From a virus, in IMG/VR virus record IMGVR_UViG_3300042691_012686, positions 1 through 20,377 of that record: a DNA stretch of 20,377 nucleotides. One strand, written 5' to 3'. Below, piece by piece: positions 2,758-10,452 of the stretch. The number at the start of each line of letters is the position of its first letter. Within the stretch, counting starts at the first letter, position 1. The notes beneath the pieces are model-generated. The model was not told the origin of the DNA. It was given only the letters and a program-made list of their open reading frames with translations, and did no database searches. The translations under genes and the position numbers were made by a program.

Positions 2758-2964
2758 TTATTCCATATCTAAAGGTGTAGGTGCTGTTGCCAAACTACCA
2801 CAGCTGGCACATTCCATGTCTAAGAAATATGAAGCTATTTCAAAGTTATCGAAAACTACTTTTAAGTTCCATATATCGCATCCGCAAGGACATACATGAG
2901 TTGGAACTCCTCTAAGATCCATAGCATGATCATAGTTTGCTGGTCTTAGGTCATTTATGTCCAT
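2758..2964 (-). CDS. 68-aa zinc-ribbon-like protein
   Basis: The product starts MDINDLRPANYDHAMDLRG and has two cysteine clusters: HVCPCGCDIW near residues 23-31 and ECASCGS near residue 51. This CxCxC...CxxC arrangement suggests a single structural zinc site. I recognise no enzyme family; small zinc proteins of this type are common in actinophage genomes. Translation probably begins leaderlessly, because a TTTACA-17-TATAAT promoter ends 8 bases before the ATG and there is no Shine-Dalgarno site. Confidence 0.7.
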   Translation of the reverse strand: MDINDLRPANYDHAMDLRGVPTHVCPCGCDIWNLKVVFDNFEIASYFLDMECASCGSLATAPTPLDME

Positions 2965-2972
2965 ATAAAGTT

Positions 2973-3001
2973 ATTATACTCTATACTTCAATAATTGTAA
3001 A
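2973..3001 (-). promoter_or_regulatory. Sigma70-type leaderless promoter for the zinc-ribbon gene
   Basis: -35 TTTACA (3001-2996), a 17-base spacer and a perfect -10 TATAAT (2978-2973) are followed after 8 bases by ATG at 2964. The promoter overlaps the last codons of the peptidase gene ending at 2981. Confidence 0.8.
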
Positions 3002-3547
3002 GGGTCCTCTTACAGACATGTTAAACTTAGCAGAGGCTTCTAATGCCATCCTAACACGCTTCCTTGGAGTCTTGATGTTTCCTGTAGAGAATAGGGAACC
3101 AAGAGCTAACTCTTGTCCCGCTCCTTCTGCCATGTACTGAACGTCAGCTTCTCCTATATGAAAATCTGAATCCATTGTAAATATTCTTCCAGCACCTTGT
3201 ACTGCAATCAAGAATATTCCGCCTTCATCGCCATCTTCTGTTCCAGCAGTAAAGTTTCCATATCCATGCTCTTTGAATGCATCTTTAATAGATTCAACGA
3301 ACTTTGTTCTGATAAACTTATCTAAGTTTCTATGTCCAGCAGTTGGAGTATACTTTGGTGGAGTCCAGTTGTATTGAAGTATCTGACCCATTCTAAAACT
3401 ATCTACGAAACCAATTCCGTATTGTCCAACTTTAAAAACTTTTGGATCAGTTCTTTGAAAAATTAATCCAGACTTATCATCTGATGCGGCGGCGTCTCCG
3501 CCCATGATGACTTTGTTTTCATGAATTAGGGCTACTATACATGTCAT
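2981..3547 (-). CDS. Proteasome/HslV-like Ntn-hydrolase (threonine peptidase)
   Basis: This 188-aa protein matches the proteasome beta-subunit/HslV fold by key residues. After removal of Met1 the N-terminus is TCIVALI, placing the nucleophile Thr1; GGD puts Asp at mature position 17 exactly as in HslV and proteasome beta; a Lys in DPKVFKV near position 35 can serve as the catalytic Lys33 equivalent. The YGIGFVDS strand, the EGAGQELALG segment (HslV IGSGGPYA-like) and the FTIIEV end (HslV FHTIEEL-like) keep the order. No propeptide precedes the Thr. No HslU, Mpa or other unfoldase is in the window, so it may use a host ATPase or work alone. An alternative is a non-proteasomal Ntn-hydrolase. 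The start lies 7 bases after a TATACT box. Confidence 0.75.
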   Translation of the reverse strand: MTCIVALIHENKVIMGGDAAASDDKSGLIFQRTDPKVFKVGQYGIGFVDSFRMGQILQYNWTPPKYTPTAGHRNLDKFIRTKFVESIKDAFKEHGYGNFTAGTEDGDEGGIFLIAVQGAGRIFTMDSDFHIGEADVQYMAEGAGQELALGSLFSTGNIKTPRKRVRMALEASAKFNMSVRGPFTIIEV

Positions 3548-3566: not shown

Positions 3567-3875
3567 TTAATATTCTGGGTCTAGTTCGTTTAATTCAATT
3601 AAATTTAATTGGACTAGGGCATTTTCCAGCTCTGATTTAACTCCAATTAATTCCTGGATAGCATTATAATATTTGTCTTTCCAGTTTGTGAGTTCTCTTT
3701 CAACCTCATATAGGGCAATTTTAAGGTCTTTAATTTCTAATTTAAGACGATCTTGGTCACGCTCAGCCTGCCTAATTTTCTCTTTTTTATTTTCGTGGTA
3801 TCCAGCGACAAGGGCTGTGCCCATGCCGCTTAGAGTAGCAGCACCTAACGCTATAATTAAAGACAAATAATCCAT
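3567..3875 (-). CDS. Membrane-anchored coiled-coil protein
   Basis: The 102-aa product has an N-terminal hydrophobic segment (about residues 4-24, LSLIIALGAATLSG...ALVAG), then a basic stretch (HENKKEKIRQ) and a long charged coiled coil from about residue 30 to 95. A single N-terminal membrane helix plus a coiled coil recalls inner-membrane spanins or membrane-tethered scaffolds. A spanin is doubtful if the host has a single membrane, as most Actinobacteria do. It lies directly upstream of the Ntn-hydrolase gene. The start is an ATG 9 bases after a TATAAT box and lacks a Shine-Dalgarno site. Confidence 0.75.
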   Translation of the reverse strand: MDYLSLIIALGAATLSGMGTALVAGYHENKKEKIRQAERDQDRLKLEIKDLKIALYEVERELTNWKDKYYNAIQELIGVKSELENALVQLNLIELNELDPEY

Positions 3876-4334: not shown

Positions 4335-4647
4335 TTGGGACTCCTTCAAGCTCGCATCTGACTCCGTAGGATTCTATGAGTTTCTTTACTCTAGAAACGT
4401 AGTCAATAACCATTTCTTTTTGTATTCCAACATACTGTATAAAGTTATCTTCATATAGCCTTAAAGTCAAGAATTCTGGATACATTACTACATCCATCAT
4501 TAAATTACTTACTGGCTTTTTAATTTCACGAACTCTTTTTTTCATTTCATCTGTATAGAATACTGGCTTGTTTGGTTCTCCAGTCCATTGATTAATTCCA
4601 TATTTAAAATGTTCTTTTTCTCTATCTGCGCTTTTATCAATAAACAT
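4318..4647 (-). CDS. Hypothetical 109-aa protein
   Basis: The product starts MFIDKSADREKEHFKYGINQ, then WTGEPNKPVFYTDE, and has a central MMDVVMYPEFLTLRLYED region, ending in a helix-rich tail. No family or catalytic motif is recognised. The ATG overlaps the last codons of the WhiB gene by 11 bases. It sits second or third in the operon driven by the operator-bearing promoter at 5178-5226, so it is probably expressed with the regulator. Confidence 0.65.
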   Translation of the reverse strand: MFIDKSADREKEHFKYGINQWTGEPNKPVFYTDEMKKRVREIKKPVSNLMMDVVMYPEFLTLRLYEDNFIQYVGIQKEMVIDYVSRVKKLIESYGVRCELEGVPSERVL

Positions 4648-4945
4648 TTTTCTTTAACCTCTTCCAGACTTCCTGAGTTTTATGTGAGTTACGAGCTTTA
4701 TCAATTGATCCTGCATTTAAATAAATGCCGCCCCAAACTCCATGTTCATTGTTATCAACACCATTTTGATAGCAGAACTTTTTTACTGGGCAAGATATAC
4801 ATGCCTCGTCGATATTCTTTGCGATCTGAACATCGTTCTCATATTTATCATAAAATAAATTTACATCCATTCCCTGACAAACTGCTAGATTCCACCAATC
4901 GAAATCATCTTCATCTATTCCAAGATCATTTAAAATATTTGACAT
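4637..4945 (-). CDS. WhiB-family iron-sulfur transcription factor
   Basis: A 102-aa protein with the four WhiB cysteines: one in LAVCQGMD, then the pair in EACISCPVKKFC and the last Cys of that motif, followed by the diagnostic GVWGGIYL turn and a basic C-terminal segment (KARNSHKTQEVWKRLKK). WhiB proteins bind a [4Fe-4S] cluster, contact region 4 of the primary sigma factor and alter promoter choice; phage versions (such as mycobacteriophage TM4 WhiB) repress host whiB genes. The start at 4945 gives the common short N-terminus ending in DWWNLAVC; an in-frame ATG at 4978 is possible but extends the overlap with the upstream gene to 53 bases. It is the second gene after a promoter with a palindromic operator. 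Confidence 0.88.
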   Translation of the reverse strand: MSNILNDLGIDEDDFDWWNLAVCQGMDVNLFYDKYENDVQIAKNIDEACISCPVKKFCYQNGVDNNEHGVWGGIYLNAGSIDKARNSHKTQEVWKRLKKNVY

Positions 4946-5159
4946 ATTTGTGTGGTAGATCCCAGATTCCCTTATCATTTACTGAAACAGTTTCAGCTAT
5001 GCCCCATGAATTATTTCTAAACATTCCCTTTTTATCTGTATAACCGCTTGGGTTCTTTTTCCATATAAATAAGTTGTAGTTTTCCCAAAATGATTCCTGA
5101 TTTTTTTTATTAAATCTTTTAATAAAGACCTCTACACCACTATGATTCAGTTTTAACAT
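4926..5159 (-). CDS. Hypothetical 77-aa protein, first gene of the WhiB operon
   Basis: The product begins MLKLNHSGVEVFIKRFNKKN and is basic and aromatic, with the segments WENYNLFIWKKNPSGYTDKKG, GMFRNNSWGIAETV and GIWDLPHKYVKYFK. No family is recognised. An AGGAAAAC site directly precedes the ATG, and a consensus promoter lies about 40 bases upstream. The gene overlaps the WhiB start by 20 bases. As promoter-proximal partner of a phage WhiB it may be an early takeover protein, which is inference from position only. Confidence 0.65.
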   Translation of the reverse strand: MLKLNHSGVEVFIKRFNKKNQESFWENYNLFIWKKNPSGYTDKKGMFRNNSWGIAETVSVNDKGIWDLPHKYVKYFK

Positions 5160-7239: not shown

Positions 7240-7450
7240 TTGTATTACCTGTTTCAGTTGTAGTAGTTGGCTCTTTACCAATTACGTCTTTAGTGCATGT
7301 GCCTGTTGCTTCACAAATTGGAGGATTACATTCGGCTTTCTCCCAATTTGCAGGATCCTGACAAGGATACCTGTAAAAACCATCATGGCCACAACTAGTT
7401 AATGATAACATTAGTAGGCCTGACAAAGCAATAGCAGCTATTCTTTTCAT
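7232..7450 (-). CDS. Small lipoprotein
   Basis: The 72-aa product has a lipoprotein signal: MKRIAAIALSGLLMLSLTSC with lipobox LTSC, so Cys20 would be lipidated after cleavage. The mature part has five further Cys and the segment GFYRYPCQDPANWEKAEC, PPICEATGTC, then a Thr-rich tail; the YRYPCQDPANW motif recurs, as I recall, in T4-like cyanophage and other phage proteins of unknown role. Likely exposed on the outer face of the host membrane, for example for superinfection exclusion or lysis control (inference). The ATG at 7450 lies 6 bases after TATAAT and has no Shine-Dalgarno site, so I reject the 62-residue longer frame. Confidence 0.8.
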   Translation of the reverse strand: MKRIAAIALSGLLMLSLTSCGHDGFYRYPCQDPANWEKAECNPPICEATGTCTKDVIGKEPTTTTETGNTNG

Positions 7451-7456
7451 ACCACT

Positions 7457-7462
7457 ATTATA
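7457..7462 (-). promoter_or_regulatory. Leaderless -10 box for the lipoprotein gene
   Basis: A perfect TATAAT preceded by GGG ends 6 bases before the ATG at 7450 on the minus strand. The upstream region gives only a weak -35 (TTTAAG-like). A promoter here could raise expression of lipoprotein, holin and endolysin relative to the long upstream gene. Confidence 0.65.
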
Positions 7463-7464
7463 CC

Positions 7465-7662
7465 CTATTCCTCGTCTTTTCTTAAAGGAATGGTAATTAG
7501 CCAAATTACGGTAACTACTACTGTGGCTATTCCTACAATATCTTGGGCTGTTCCTGTTAGGGTGAGCCAGGCTATAAAAAAGCCAAGGATTGTCCATAGC
7601 TGAGCTATGCTTTCCTTTACTGCTTCCCAGATCCAATTAAGGAATCCTTTGATTATTTTCAT
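7465..7662 (-). CDS. Small membrane protein, alternative holin candidate
   Basis: The 65-aa product has an amphipathic N-terminus (MKIIKGFLNWIWEAVKESI) and two hydrophobic stretches, about residues 22-36 (LWTILGFFIAWLTLTG) and 41-58 (IVGIATVVVTVIWLI), ending in a charged LRKDEE tail. This is the size and topology of a small class II holin. An excellent AGGAGG site lies 5 bases from the ATG, which overlaps the stop of the PA14 gene as TAATG. With the 137-aa membrane protein nearby it could form a holin/antiholin pair. Confidence 0.75.
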   Translation of the reverse strand: MKIIKGFLNWIWEAVKESIAQLWTILGFFIAWLTLTGTAQDIVGIATVVVTVIWLITIPLRKDEE

Positions 7663-9692
7663 TATATCCTCCTAGTCATGGCTGCTGCCACAATATTACC
7701 TGCAATAATTACTGGCACAATTACTTCCTGTGCTTTTTCTCTCTGATCATCAGTCAAATCTTTGCCCCATTCTGATGGATCAAAAACTTTTTCAAAATCT
7801 ATATTTGTCATGGCTCCTATTGGATCCGACAAAAATGCCTCTGTTTGAACTTCTGTTGTAGCATCTGCCAGAGTGTATGGCATTGTTGCATTTTCTGCAG
7901 CAGCTTCTCTATCCTTAAATTCTACAAATGCTGTTGCTAATTCTGGATTAGATTTCATAGCCTCTGCAATTACTGCAACCTCTGATGATTTAATTCCTAA
8001 ATCTTGTGCGACTTCTGCCTTTGCTTCATTTGTTAAAGCATTCAAAGTCTGACTGACTGCAGCAATTTGCTCTCTAGATAATACAACTAATTTATTATCT
8101 TTACTAGTTAAATTAGCTATAACTCCAGAAAGATCTTCCTCTGTTCCCGTTCCTTTTTCTGGAATCAATTCTTTAAGATCTTCGTCAATTATGGTATTAT
8201 TTTCTTGTGATTCTTCAGAAGGTTCAATTGGAGTTGGCTCTGGTTCAGGAGTTGGCTCTGGATCTGTATCCGTTGGCTGAGGTGAAGGCTCTGGTGAAGG
8301 CTGAGGAGTGGGCTCAGGCTCAGGGGTTGGCTCTGGCTTCGGTTCATCTGTGGTTTCAGGCGTTGGCTCTGGAGTGGGATCGATTGGTTGAGTTTGCTCA
8401 GGAGATGGCTCAGGAGTAGGTTCTACAGTAGGCTGCGGACTTGGATCAACAACTGGTTGATTTGCTGCAGCTTGTGCTAATGCAGTAGCAATTTCTCTGG
8501 CTAACTGTTCCTCATAATATAACCAAGCATTGTCAATTGCATTATTCATATCAATAATTGATTGATCATACACAGAAATAGAATTATTTTTAGCAATTAA
8601 AGCATTTGTGAGGTTTTGAGTAGCAGTTGTGAGGTTTTCATTCTTTAATGTGAGGTTTTCATTAAGAAGTGTGAGGTTTTGAACAGAACTATTATAAATA
8701 AATAATTTGTCATTATATACTTCTTGAGCCTGAGTCTGAGTTAAAACTGCTGAATTATATGAATCAATTTGCGCTTGTGTTGCTCCAGAACCAGAAGAAA
8801 ATGTATTTAAATCACAACTAAATCCTACGCCCCATCCTCCAGTATAATCGCATCCTGCTCCAGTCCATCCTCCAGGAATTGCCCATCCAAGATGATAGTA
8901 CCCTGGACCTCCGCCGTTATACCACCAAATTTCTACATCTAAAGTTTTATCTTGACTAACGTCATATATTGGAGAGAATGGACTCCATGTGCTGCCTTGC
9001 TCTCTCCAGTTATTTACTGCAAGCTCACCGTTAACATACATTCTAAATCCATCATCAGTATATCCTGCAAAATAAGTTGAAGTCCAATGTGATGGCACAG
9101 TTATTGTTCCAGTAAATTTAACAATTATATTTTCATAATATCCACAAACTGGAAGACTCATAGAGTTTGAATTCCAAGTACCACTGCATATAAAAGCATC
9201 TGGAACCGCAGTACCGTTCCATGTTCTGGTAAGGTGGTATACAGTATATTGAAGACCTGCACCGCCAGCAGATTGAATATTTAACTGTGTTGTTTGAACA
9301 TTAAGATTTGCAACTTCTAAAGCATTCTGTGCGTTATTTTTATTTTCTAGAGCTGTTGAAACCACAGCCGTTTGATCATCTACTGCTAATTGTGCTGAAT
9401 TCTTTTCTTCTAATGCTGTTGCTTCTGCTGCTACAGCCGCATCATATGCGTTGTGAGCACTATCTTTAGCCTGTTTTGCGGCTACTGCTGAATCATATTT
9501 TTGTTCTGCGATATCTATTAAGGATATAAATTCATCCTTATAATTTAAATCAGATACGCTTTCATTTAATTTTTGTATCTCTTGAGCTGCTAAGCTTAAT
9601 TGATCATCGCTATAAGAAGCGGGTGTGAGAAACAGCCAACCGAACCCTAAAATTGCGGTTAATGATAATCTCCATAACTTAGTCCTAGTCAA
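7662..9692 (-). CDS. Large exported PA14-domain protein with C-terminal membrane segment
   Basis: The 676-aa product has a signal-like hydrophobic N-terminus (about 7-26), an Ala/Glu/Asn coiled coil (30-140), a PA14-type beta domain (about 148-272) with the hallmark DDGFRMYVNGELAVNNW, a second coiled coil with four NLT heptads (310-375), a Pro/Glu/Thr-rich spacer (about 415-492), a helical domain, and a final hydrophobic helix (about 654-672) ending in TRRI. PA14 domains usually bind carbohydrate or sit in adhesins. The layout suggests export with the C-terminus held in the membrane and the PA14 domain displayed across the wall. The start is TTG with AGGAG 6 bases upstream. Virion-fibre function is less likely given the signal peptide. 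Confidence 0.8.
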   Translation of the reverse strand: MTRTKLWRLSLTAILGFGWLFLTPASYSDDQLSLAAQEIQKLNESVSDLNYKDEFISLIDIAEQKYDSAVAAKQAKDSAHNAYDAAVAAEATALEEKNSAQLAVDDQTAVVSTALENKNNAQNALEVANLNVQTTQLNIQSAGGAGLQYTVYHLTRTWNGTAVPDAFICSGTWNSNSMSLPVCGYYENIIVKFTGTITVPSHWTSTYFAGYTDDGFRMYVNGELAVNNWREQGSTWSPFSPIYDVSQDKTLDVEIWWYNGGGPGYYHLGWAIPGGWTGAGCDYTGGWGVGFSCDLNTFSSGSGATQAQIDSYNSAVLTQTQAQEVYNDKLFIYNSSVQNLTLLNENLTLKNENLTTATQNLTNALIAKNNSISVYDQSIIDMNNAIDNAWLYYEEQLAREIATALAQAAANQPVVDPSPQPTVEPTPEPSPEQTQPIDPTPEPTPETTDEPKPEPTPEPEPTPQPSPEPSPQPTDTDPEPTPEPEPTPIEPSEESQENNTIIDEDLKELIPEKGTGTEEDLSGVIANLTSKDNKLVVLSREQIAAVSQTLNALTNEAKAEVAQDLGIKSSEVAVIAEAMKSNPELATAFVEFKDREAAAENATMPYTLADATTEVQTEAFLSDPIGAMTNIDFEKVFDPSEWGKDLTDDQREKAQEVIVPVIIAGNIVAAAMTRRI
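8217..8450 (-). repeat. Low-complexity Pro/Glu/Thr-rich coding repeat
   Basis: Degenerate tandem repeats of a PEPTPEP-type unit span about 78 codons within the PA14 protein. Such segments act as rigid, extended wall-spanning spacers in Gram-positive surface proteins. On the other strand the same bases give a spurious open frame. Confidence 0.85.
8607..8680 (-). repeat. Four 21-bp repeats encoding NLT heptads
   Basis: The 11-mer TGTGAGGTTTT (plus strand) occurs at 8607, 8628, 8649 and 8670, spaced exactly 21 bases. On the coding strand each gives a heptad containing Asn-Leu-Thr, within the second coiled coil of the PA14 protein. Near-identity at DNA level points to recent duplication. Confidence 0.9.
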
Positions 9693-9947: not shown

Positions 9948-10053
9948 TGAGCAGTTTAAACACATGCTCAGGTGTATCCTAAGGCGTAACTATTAGCCCG
10001 TGCCCCATCCGATGGGACAGAACTATTATACCTTACTTAATTTTGACTGTCTT
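9948..10053 (-). promoter_or_regulatory. Promoter and structured leader of the FmdB gene
   Basis: -35 AAGACA (10053-10048), 17 bases, and perfect -10 TATAAT (10030-10025) overlap the end of Hsp20. The predicted transcript starts near 10018, at the foot of an 8-bp hairpin (10019-10001, CCCAT/ATGGG core, 3-base loop). A second hairpin (9970-9948, TGAGCA/TGCTCA) lies just before the A/T-rich segment and ribosome site. The GC-rich middle (about 10000-9971) stands out from its surroundings. The region may hold a cis-regulatory RNA; I could not match it to a named riboswitch class. Confidence 0.55.
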
Positions 10054-10452
10054 AGGCTTTTTATCTTCAGGTACAATTTTTTCAACTGTAATAGAAAGCA
10101 AGCCATTCTTTAGCTCAGCACCAGTCACTTCCATATATTCACCCAGCGCAAATGTGCGGGTAAACTTACGAGCAGCGATCCCCTTGTGAATTGCTTCACC
10201 AGTATCTTCTGCATTAACTTCTCCCTTAATTACAAGGGTTCCATTATCTACGGTTACATCTACATCCTTCTTATCGAATCCTGCCAAAGCTAGGTCGACA
10301 CGGAATACATCATCTTCTACCTTTACAATATTGTATGGTGGATATGATTGATGTGATGCTGTTGTGTGTACTGAATTTAGGCGATCAAACATGTCGTTGA
10401 AGCCAATAAAAAATGGGTCCTTAAAAAGGTCCCATGTATATGTTGCTACCAT
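10033..10452 (-). CDS. Small heat-shock protein (Hsp20/alpha-crystallin)
   Basis: A 139-aa ATP-independent holdase. The N-terminal arm (1-38) contains DPFFIGFNDMFDRL. The alpha-crystallin domain (about 39-125) has YPPYNIVKVEDDVFRVDLAL, AGFDKKDVDV, LVIKGE and the late GAELKNGLLSITV strand, where the family norm is AxxxNGVLxVxxP. The C-terminus KTVKIK may replace the I-x-I anchor. Hsp20 genes occur in many myoviruses and cyanophages, where they may help assembly or protect host proteins. AAAGGAGG lies 6-7 bases before the ATG, preceded by a promoter and a strong 5' hairpin. Confidence 0.95.
   Translation of the reverse strand: MVATYTWDLFKDPFFIGFNDMFDRLNSVHTTASHQSYPPYNIVKVEDDVFRVDLALAGFDKKDVDVTVDNGTLVIKGEVNAEDTGEAIHKGIAARKFTRTFALGEYMEVTGAELKNGLLSITVEKIVPEDKKPKTVKIK

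Follow-up and report, generated by a model that had tools for sequence, protein, structure and literature searches.

An AAH-like, proteasome-type threonine hydrolase in a WhiB-associated phage clade that appears to infect Actinobacteria

In 2021, Fuchs, Alva and Lupas described AAH, a proteasome homolog with no known AAA+ partner that is distributed over alpha-proteobacteria and Actinobacteria, with Firmicutes and phages; their survey recorded no Actinobacteria-specific phage with AAH (PMC8665760). The beta-proteobacterial proteasome homolog BPH (PDB 5OVS), a tetradecameric double ring, also has no known unfoldase, and its long, acidic pore loop, as against the short, basic loop of HslV, has been tied to that lack (PMC5777263, PMC8665760). 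For BPH, removal of the initiator Met was shown experimentally to expose Thr1, and the protein binds epoxomicin, yet showed no activity in vitro on standard substrates (PMC5777263). Solitary HslV-like proteins of phages are likewise already known: they were surveyed in PMC8665760, a protein family for them exists (PHROG 1040), and a Salmonella jumbo phage carries HslV without HslU (PMC7823757). What we add is a large phage clade, syntenic and associated with WhiB, whose protein has a distinct pore loop and an altered second catalytic triad.

The window, by which we mean the whole stretch of DNA analysed, is a virus contig of 20,377 bases with 37% GC. The gene under study looks like a working gene for a small proteasome relative. 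No in-frame ATG, GTG or TTG start lies in the sequence upstream of its ATG, and within its clade the median dN/dS is 0.067 (139 pairs), showing that it is under purifying selection. The features referred to below are as follows, all on the minus strand.

2758-2964, minus strand: small Cys-rich protein, zinc-ribbon-like by eye, directly downstream; present in 78/78 relatives covering this place
2981-3547, minus strand: proteasome-like N-terminal-threonine Ntn hydrolase, probably of AAH/PHROG 1040 type, 188 aa, ATG start
3119-3121, minus strand: codon of Ala143, at the place of proteasome Ser129 in the alignment (second, proton-shuttle triad)
3215-3268, minus strand: pore-loop region (ORF residues 94-111), long and acidic (TEDGDEGG), from the alignment
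3440-3442, minus strand: codon of the Lys33 equivalent (ORF residue 36, mature residue 35)
3494-3496, minus strand: codon of Asp17 (ORF residue 18)
3542-3544, minus strand: codon of catalytic Thr1 (ORF residue 2)
3567-3875, minus strand: N-terminal membrane helix (hydropathy 1.89 over residues 6-24) and coiled coil, 102 aa; phrog_10127, E=1.8e-11
4637-4978, minus strand: WhiB-like regulator; PF02467, E=3.7e-10

Profile and fold searches were needed because single-sequence searches of Pfam, NCBIfam and the PDB were too weak: PF00227 gave E=0.15, which misses the Pfam cut-off, and the NCBIfam search reached no HslV equivalog model and only 20S beta models, far below cut-off. The PHROG 1040 profile ("peptidase HslV family") matched the window protein at E=8.4e-14 and matched all 63 aligned relatives, and a 16-row family profile searched against the PDB retrieved HslV (E=7.6e-15) and BPH (E=1.4e-11). 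An AlphaFold2 model built from a 63-row alignment (pLDDT 92.2, pTM 0.87) is an Ntn beta-sandwich with flanking helices. Its best PDB chain in Foldseek was BPH (E 1.2e-10, TM 0.73), followed by HslV and 20S beta, with 987 matches at E<=0.001; identity over the PDB fold matches was low, about 10-20%. A search of a viral structure library also returned phage proteins of the same family. The kinship to the proteasome-like family is far beyond chance, and we regard the assignment as a proteasome-like Ntn hydrolase, together with its fold, as near certain.

Once Met is removed, Thr and Asp fall exactly at positions 1 and 17 (ORF residues 2 and 18), where HslV and proteasome beta subunits have them, and the Lys that the first-pass annotation had placed near position 35 is the Lys33 equivalent at mature residue 35. 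Thr follows the start Met directly, so that there is no propeptide, as had also been stated. Conservation was counted over 122 aligned relatives, among them 31 from the window clade and 72 bacterial. Asp and Lys are kept in 122/122 and Thr in 121/122, the remaining one, from phage pT24, having Ser. A fold without the Ntn sandwich, or loss of these residues in homologues, had been named beforehand as grounds for dropping the assignment; the sandwich is predicted and the residues are conserved. The window protein has the Thr1 (or Ser1)/Asp17/Lys33 triad and oxyanion Gly47 that mark the proteasome family, the presumed oxyanion residue being Gly46, found in 116/122 relatives including the window. 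At ORF residue 46, Ala occurs in 6/31 window-clade sequences and Gly in every other relative. The HslV-like end seen at first pass also holds up, in that the alignment pairs the C-terminal strand, FTIIEV, with ITVEEL at the end of HslV.

The second triad is another matter. In the proteasome it consists of Ser129, Asp166 and the Thr1 amine, and it protonates that amine (PMC4792962). The Ser129 place is Ala in 27/31 and Ser in 4/31 sequences of the window clade, as compared with Cys in 53/72 bacterial relatives and Cys or Ser in most relatives, and by alignment the window protein has no acidic residue at the Asp166 place. With this triad incomplete, catalysis may be slow or specialised. The pore loop is also distinct: its mean net charge is -3.6 for the window clade, whereas bacterial relatives average -1.1 and two HslV proteins +1.5; these values are approximate because the loop limits were taken from the alignment.

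We then asked which described kind the protein resembles most. The model contains all four helices H1-H4 (residues 51-59, 75-93, 145-154 and 161-175), which by the definitions in PMC8665760 excludes both PPH, which lacks H2, and connectase, which lacks H1 and H2. PPH shares with the window protein that it is a phage-borne proteasome-like subunit, but at about 140 residues it is shorter than the 188 aa found here, with H2 at 75-93. Connectase also has a two-helix insert, and no helical insert is predicted between residues 20 and 50, between the early strands of the model. A 20S proteasome beta subunit was rejected too: there is no propeptide, and the TIGR03690 equivalog scored 16.5 bits against a cut-off of 191.9. 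HslV shares the fold, Thr1/Asp17/Lys33, the GxG motif and the C-terminal strand; however, identity is only 12-17%, the HslV pore loop is basic and short whereas the window protein has extra loop residues, and no HslU accompanies it. BPH shares the best PDB fold, the missing propeptide, the long acidic pore loop and the lack of a known unfoldase, but it is about 17-20% identical, falls in another sequence cluster and comes from other hosts. AAH fits best, judging from the host range of the bacterial relatives and from AAH as described in PMC8665760. The compact subunit with H1-H4, without S12/H5 and without a propeptide, is what the model and the Met-Thr start indicate, and the Thr1/Asp17/Lys triad, the absence of an AAA+ partner and the occurrence in phages are shared as well; the difference is that the pore loop of the window clade exceeds that of bacterial relatives in length and acidity. 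The first-pass description of a solitary proteasome/HslV-like peptidase thus stands as to fold, active site and solitary state, but its nearest relatives are AAH-type homologs and BPH, and not HslV as such. PHROG 1040 takes in the window protein together with more distant types such as that of DSL-LC01, and its name does not imply dependence on HslU.

At least 163 close and at least 595 wider relatives were found in IMG/VR, and tblastn matched 47 phage records, every one at <60% identity. In the tree, the window clade had 100/100 support and lay within a phage and bacterial radiation, apart from the DSL-LC01 type, on a long stem from which its nearest bacterial kin could not be read; deep forks were poorly resolved and branches were long. 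Bacterial relatives came from Frankia, Pseudofrankia, Actinomadura, Azospirillum, rhizobia (Rhizobium) and some Firmicutes (Paenibacillus), a range that agrees with that of AAH. Many bacterial AAH carriers belong to nitrogen-fixer or symbiont genera (Frankia, Azospirillum, rhizobial and Paraburkholderia plasmids); a motif-based look at the genes beside bacterial AAH recognised no nif genes, and a link between AAH and nif is unsupported. The reference accession for AAH, WP_035979212, did not occur in four plasmid records examined. Among actinobacterial phages in GenBank, Arthrobacter Hum25, Microbacterium Pumpernickel and DSL-LC01 carry PHROG 1040 proteins annotated just as "protease" or "ATP-dependent protease subunit". 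Some phages carry more than one such gene. A phage contig of our set (L274, the same contig as L078) encodes at 7338-7871 a second, different PHROG 1040 protein (MTTIVGIQ..., DSL-LC01-like by eye), with a GroES/Cpn10-like gene about 300 bases further on (8181-8492; PF00166, E=5e-18); a phage with two proteasome-like types could build them into mixed particles or into separate ones. Aeromonas phage 2L372X (L091) has two adjoining "peptidase HslV family" genes, gp211 and gp001, and in Escherichia phage 121Q a ClpP-like protease gene (L094:2065-3597) stands next but one to a ClpYQ-like gene.

WhiB accompanies the gene in 73/73 loci of the window clade and is treated as an actinophage marker (PMC10202952). 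The terminase of the clade is 60-64% identical to those of Streptomyces phages. Together these sequence features make an actinobacterial host very likely, and the clade appears to be an Actinobacteria-specific phage group with an AAH-like protein.

The neighbours noted at first pass, a membrane-anchored coiled coil and a WhiB regulator, are there, and they belong to a conserved same-strand cassette of endolysin, WhiB, several small genes, the membrane-helix and coiled-coil gene, AAH and the small Cys-rich protein. The membrane-helix and coiled-coil gene is the nearest upstream neighbour in 70/79 relatives. WhiB also adjoins the DSL-LC01-type gene. Elsewhere in the window, all on the minus strand, lie a small heat-shock protein HSP20 gene (10033-10452; PF00011, E=9.8e-19), a second proteostasis gene in the same phage; a gene for a pyrimidine dimer DNA glycosylase (1871-2341; PF03013, E=3.8e-19), which has no PHROG match and is present in 30/75 relatives covering the place; and a gene for a protein of 676 aa (7662-9692) that looks secreted and has long Pro/Glu/Thr repeats as well as a weak PA14-like stretch.

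The search for an unfoldase was extended from the window to 14 longer relatives of 72-115 kb. No AAA+ unfoldase was found in either, in agreement with the first-pass reading of the window; AAA_2 was absent from all 14, and searches of these contigs found no HslU or Mpa-type gene, no Pup and no ClpP. Two weak, sub-threshold AAA matches covered the P-loop only, and the one in L262 is, judged from its sequence, a P-loop kinase and nucleotidyltransferase. These relatives are linear contigs that may be incomplete, and the rest of such a genome could still encode an unfoldase. On the host side, HslU was found in 0/100 sampled Actinobacteria. Among AAH carriers, it was absent from three actinobacterial genomes and present in two alpha-proteobacterial genomes and one from a Firmicute. 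If the phage protease uses a host ATPase, as suggested at first pass, that ATPase is therefore probably not HslU, given the likely actinobacterial host. The control of host proteostasis suggested with it is a candidate role.

Taken together, these data are best explained, with a probability of about 0.6, by an AAH-kind, proteasome-like peptidase of the phage (group I, on the HslV/BPH side) acting as follows. Host methionine aminopeptidase would remove Met and expose Thr1, and Thr1, Lys35 and Asp17, all present, would form a classical proteasome triad. Helices H1-H4 would hold the subunits together in a compact ring, single or double, with no propeptide. The long, acidic, BPH-like pore loop may admit or select small or unfolded substrates, in which case no dedicated AAA+ unfoldase would be needed and peptide hydrolysis would be ATP-independent or host-assisted. 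The ring would be at work within the actinobacterial cell while the phage takes it over, and not in the assembly of virions, a placing that we base on the separate prohead protease of these phages and on the gene neighbours. For the unfoldase-independent ring mechanism as such, we put the odds at about even. Since BPH is inert on standard substrates, function would not be refuted by a null peptidase assay alone.

Part of the evidence could be read differently. The phage ring might dock on Mpa/ARC, ClpX or ClpC, AAA+ unfoldases of the host, and redirect ATP-dependent degradation of host proteins; ClpX-like AAA+ proteins do score in the three actinobacterial genomes examined, and it is known that phages exploit the degradation machinery of the host by way of adaptors, ClpS for example (PMC7824862). 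We consider this unlikely, since HslU, the only known unfoldase for the HslV/BPH side, is missing from 100/100 sampled Actinobacteria, and the pore loop, being acidic, carries the reverse charge of the basic loop of HslV (PMC5777263). The route through Mpa has a difficulty of its own in the predicted subunit type, as the window protein is not a proteasome alpha subunit. Mpa docks on proteasome alpha subunits. A somewhat smaller chance goes to an Ntn enzyme that is not a general protease but a specific, connectase-like transpeptidase or ligase, or an amidase. Related folds do perform other chemistry, as connectase does (PMC8665760), the second triad is altered and BPH is inert on standard peptides (PMC5777263); against this, H1 and H2, both missing in connectase (PMC8665760), are kept, the two-helix insert is not predicted, and the triad and C-terminal end are HslV-like.

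Co-assembly with a host proteasome-like particle, which would poison or remodel it through a dominant-negative effect or altered specificity, seems improbable to us. 20S proteasomes are common in Actinobacteria (general knowledge; PMC8665760 Table 1) and AAH is found in some of them, but identity over the PDB fold matches is low (about 10-20%), and a decoy would not need a strictly kept catalytic triad. As for capsid maturation, phages of this kind do need a head protease; however, 11/14 long relatives encode a separate Peptidase_S78 prohead protease, for which reason we rejected that role. The gene moreover sits in an endolysin-WhiB-thioredoxin neighbourhood, and in unrelated phages its relatives adjoin ribonucleotide reductase, thymidylate synthase, DHFR or PhoH rather than head genes, which leaves a capsid-maturation protease with hardly any probability.

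No function, genomic context or AAA+ partner was reported for the unfoldase-less proteasome-like proteins in the 2021 survey (PMC8665760), so that they have been catalogued since then as a functionally blank group. The phage AAH-like clade described here, apparently infecting Actinobacteria, fills a gap named by that survey. As a conserved, syntenic, phage-borne group, it would also allow one substrate programme, that of infection, to be studied in a compact system. Our broadest proposal is a tentative one: a widespread clade of actinobacterial phages might deploy an ATP-independent proteasome-like ring with an acidic chamber and a reduced second triad as an infection-specific machine for degradation or processing, and the adjacent membrane-anchored coiled coil may recruit this ring to the envelope.
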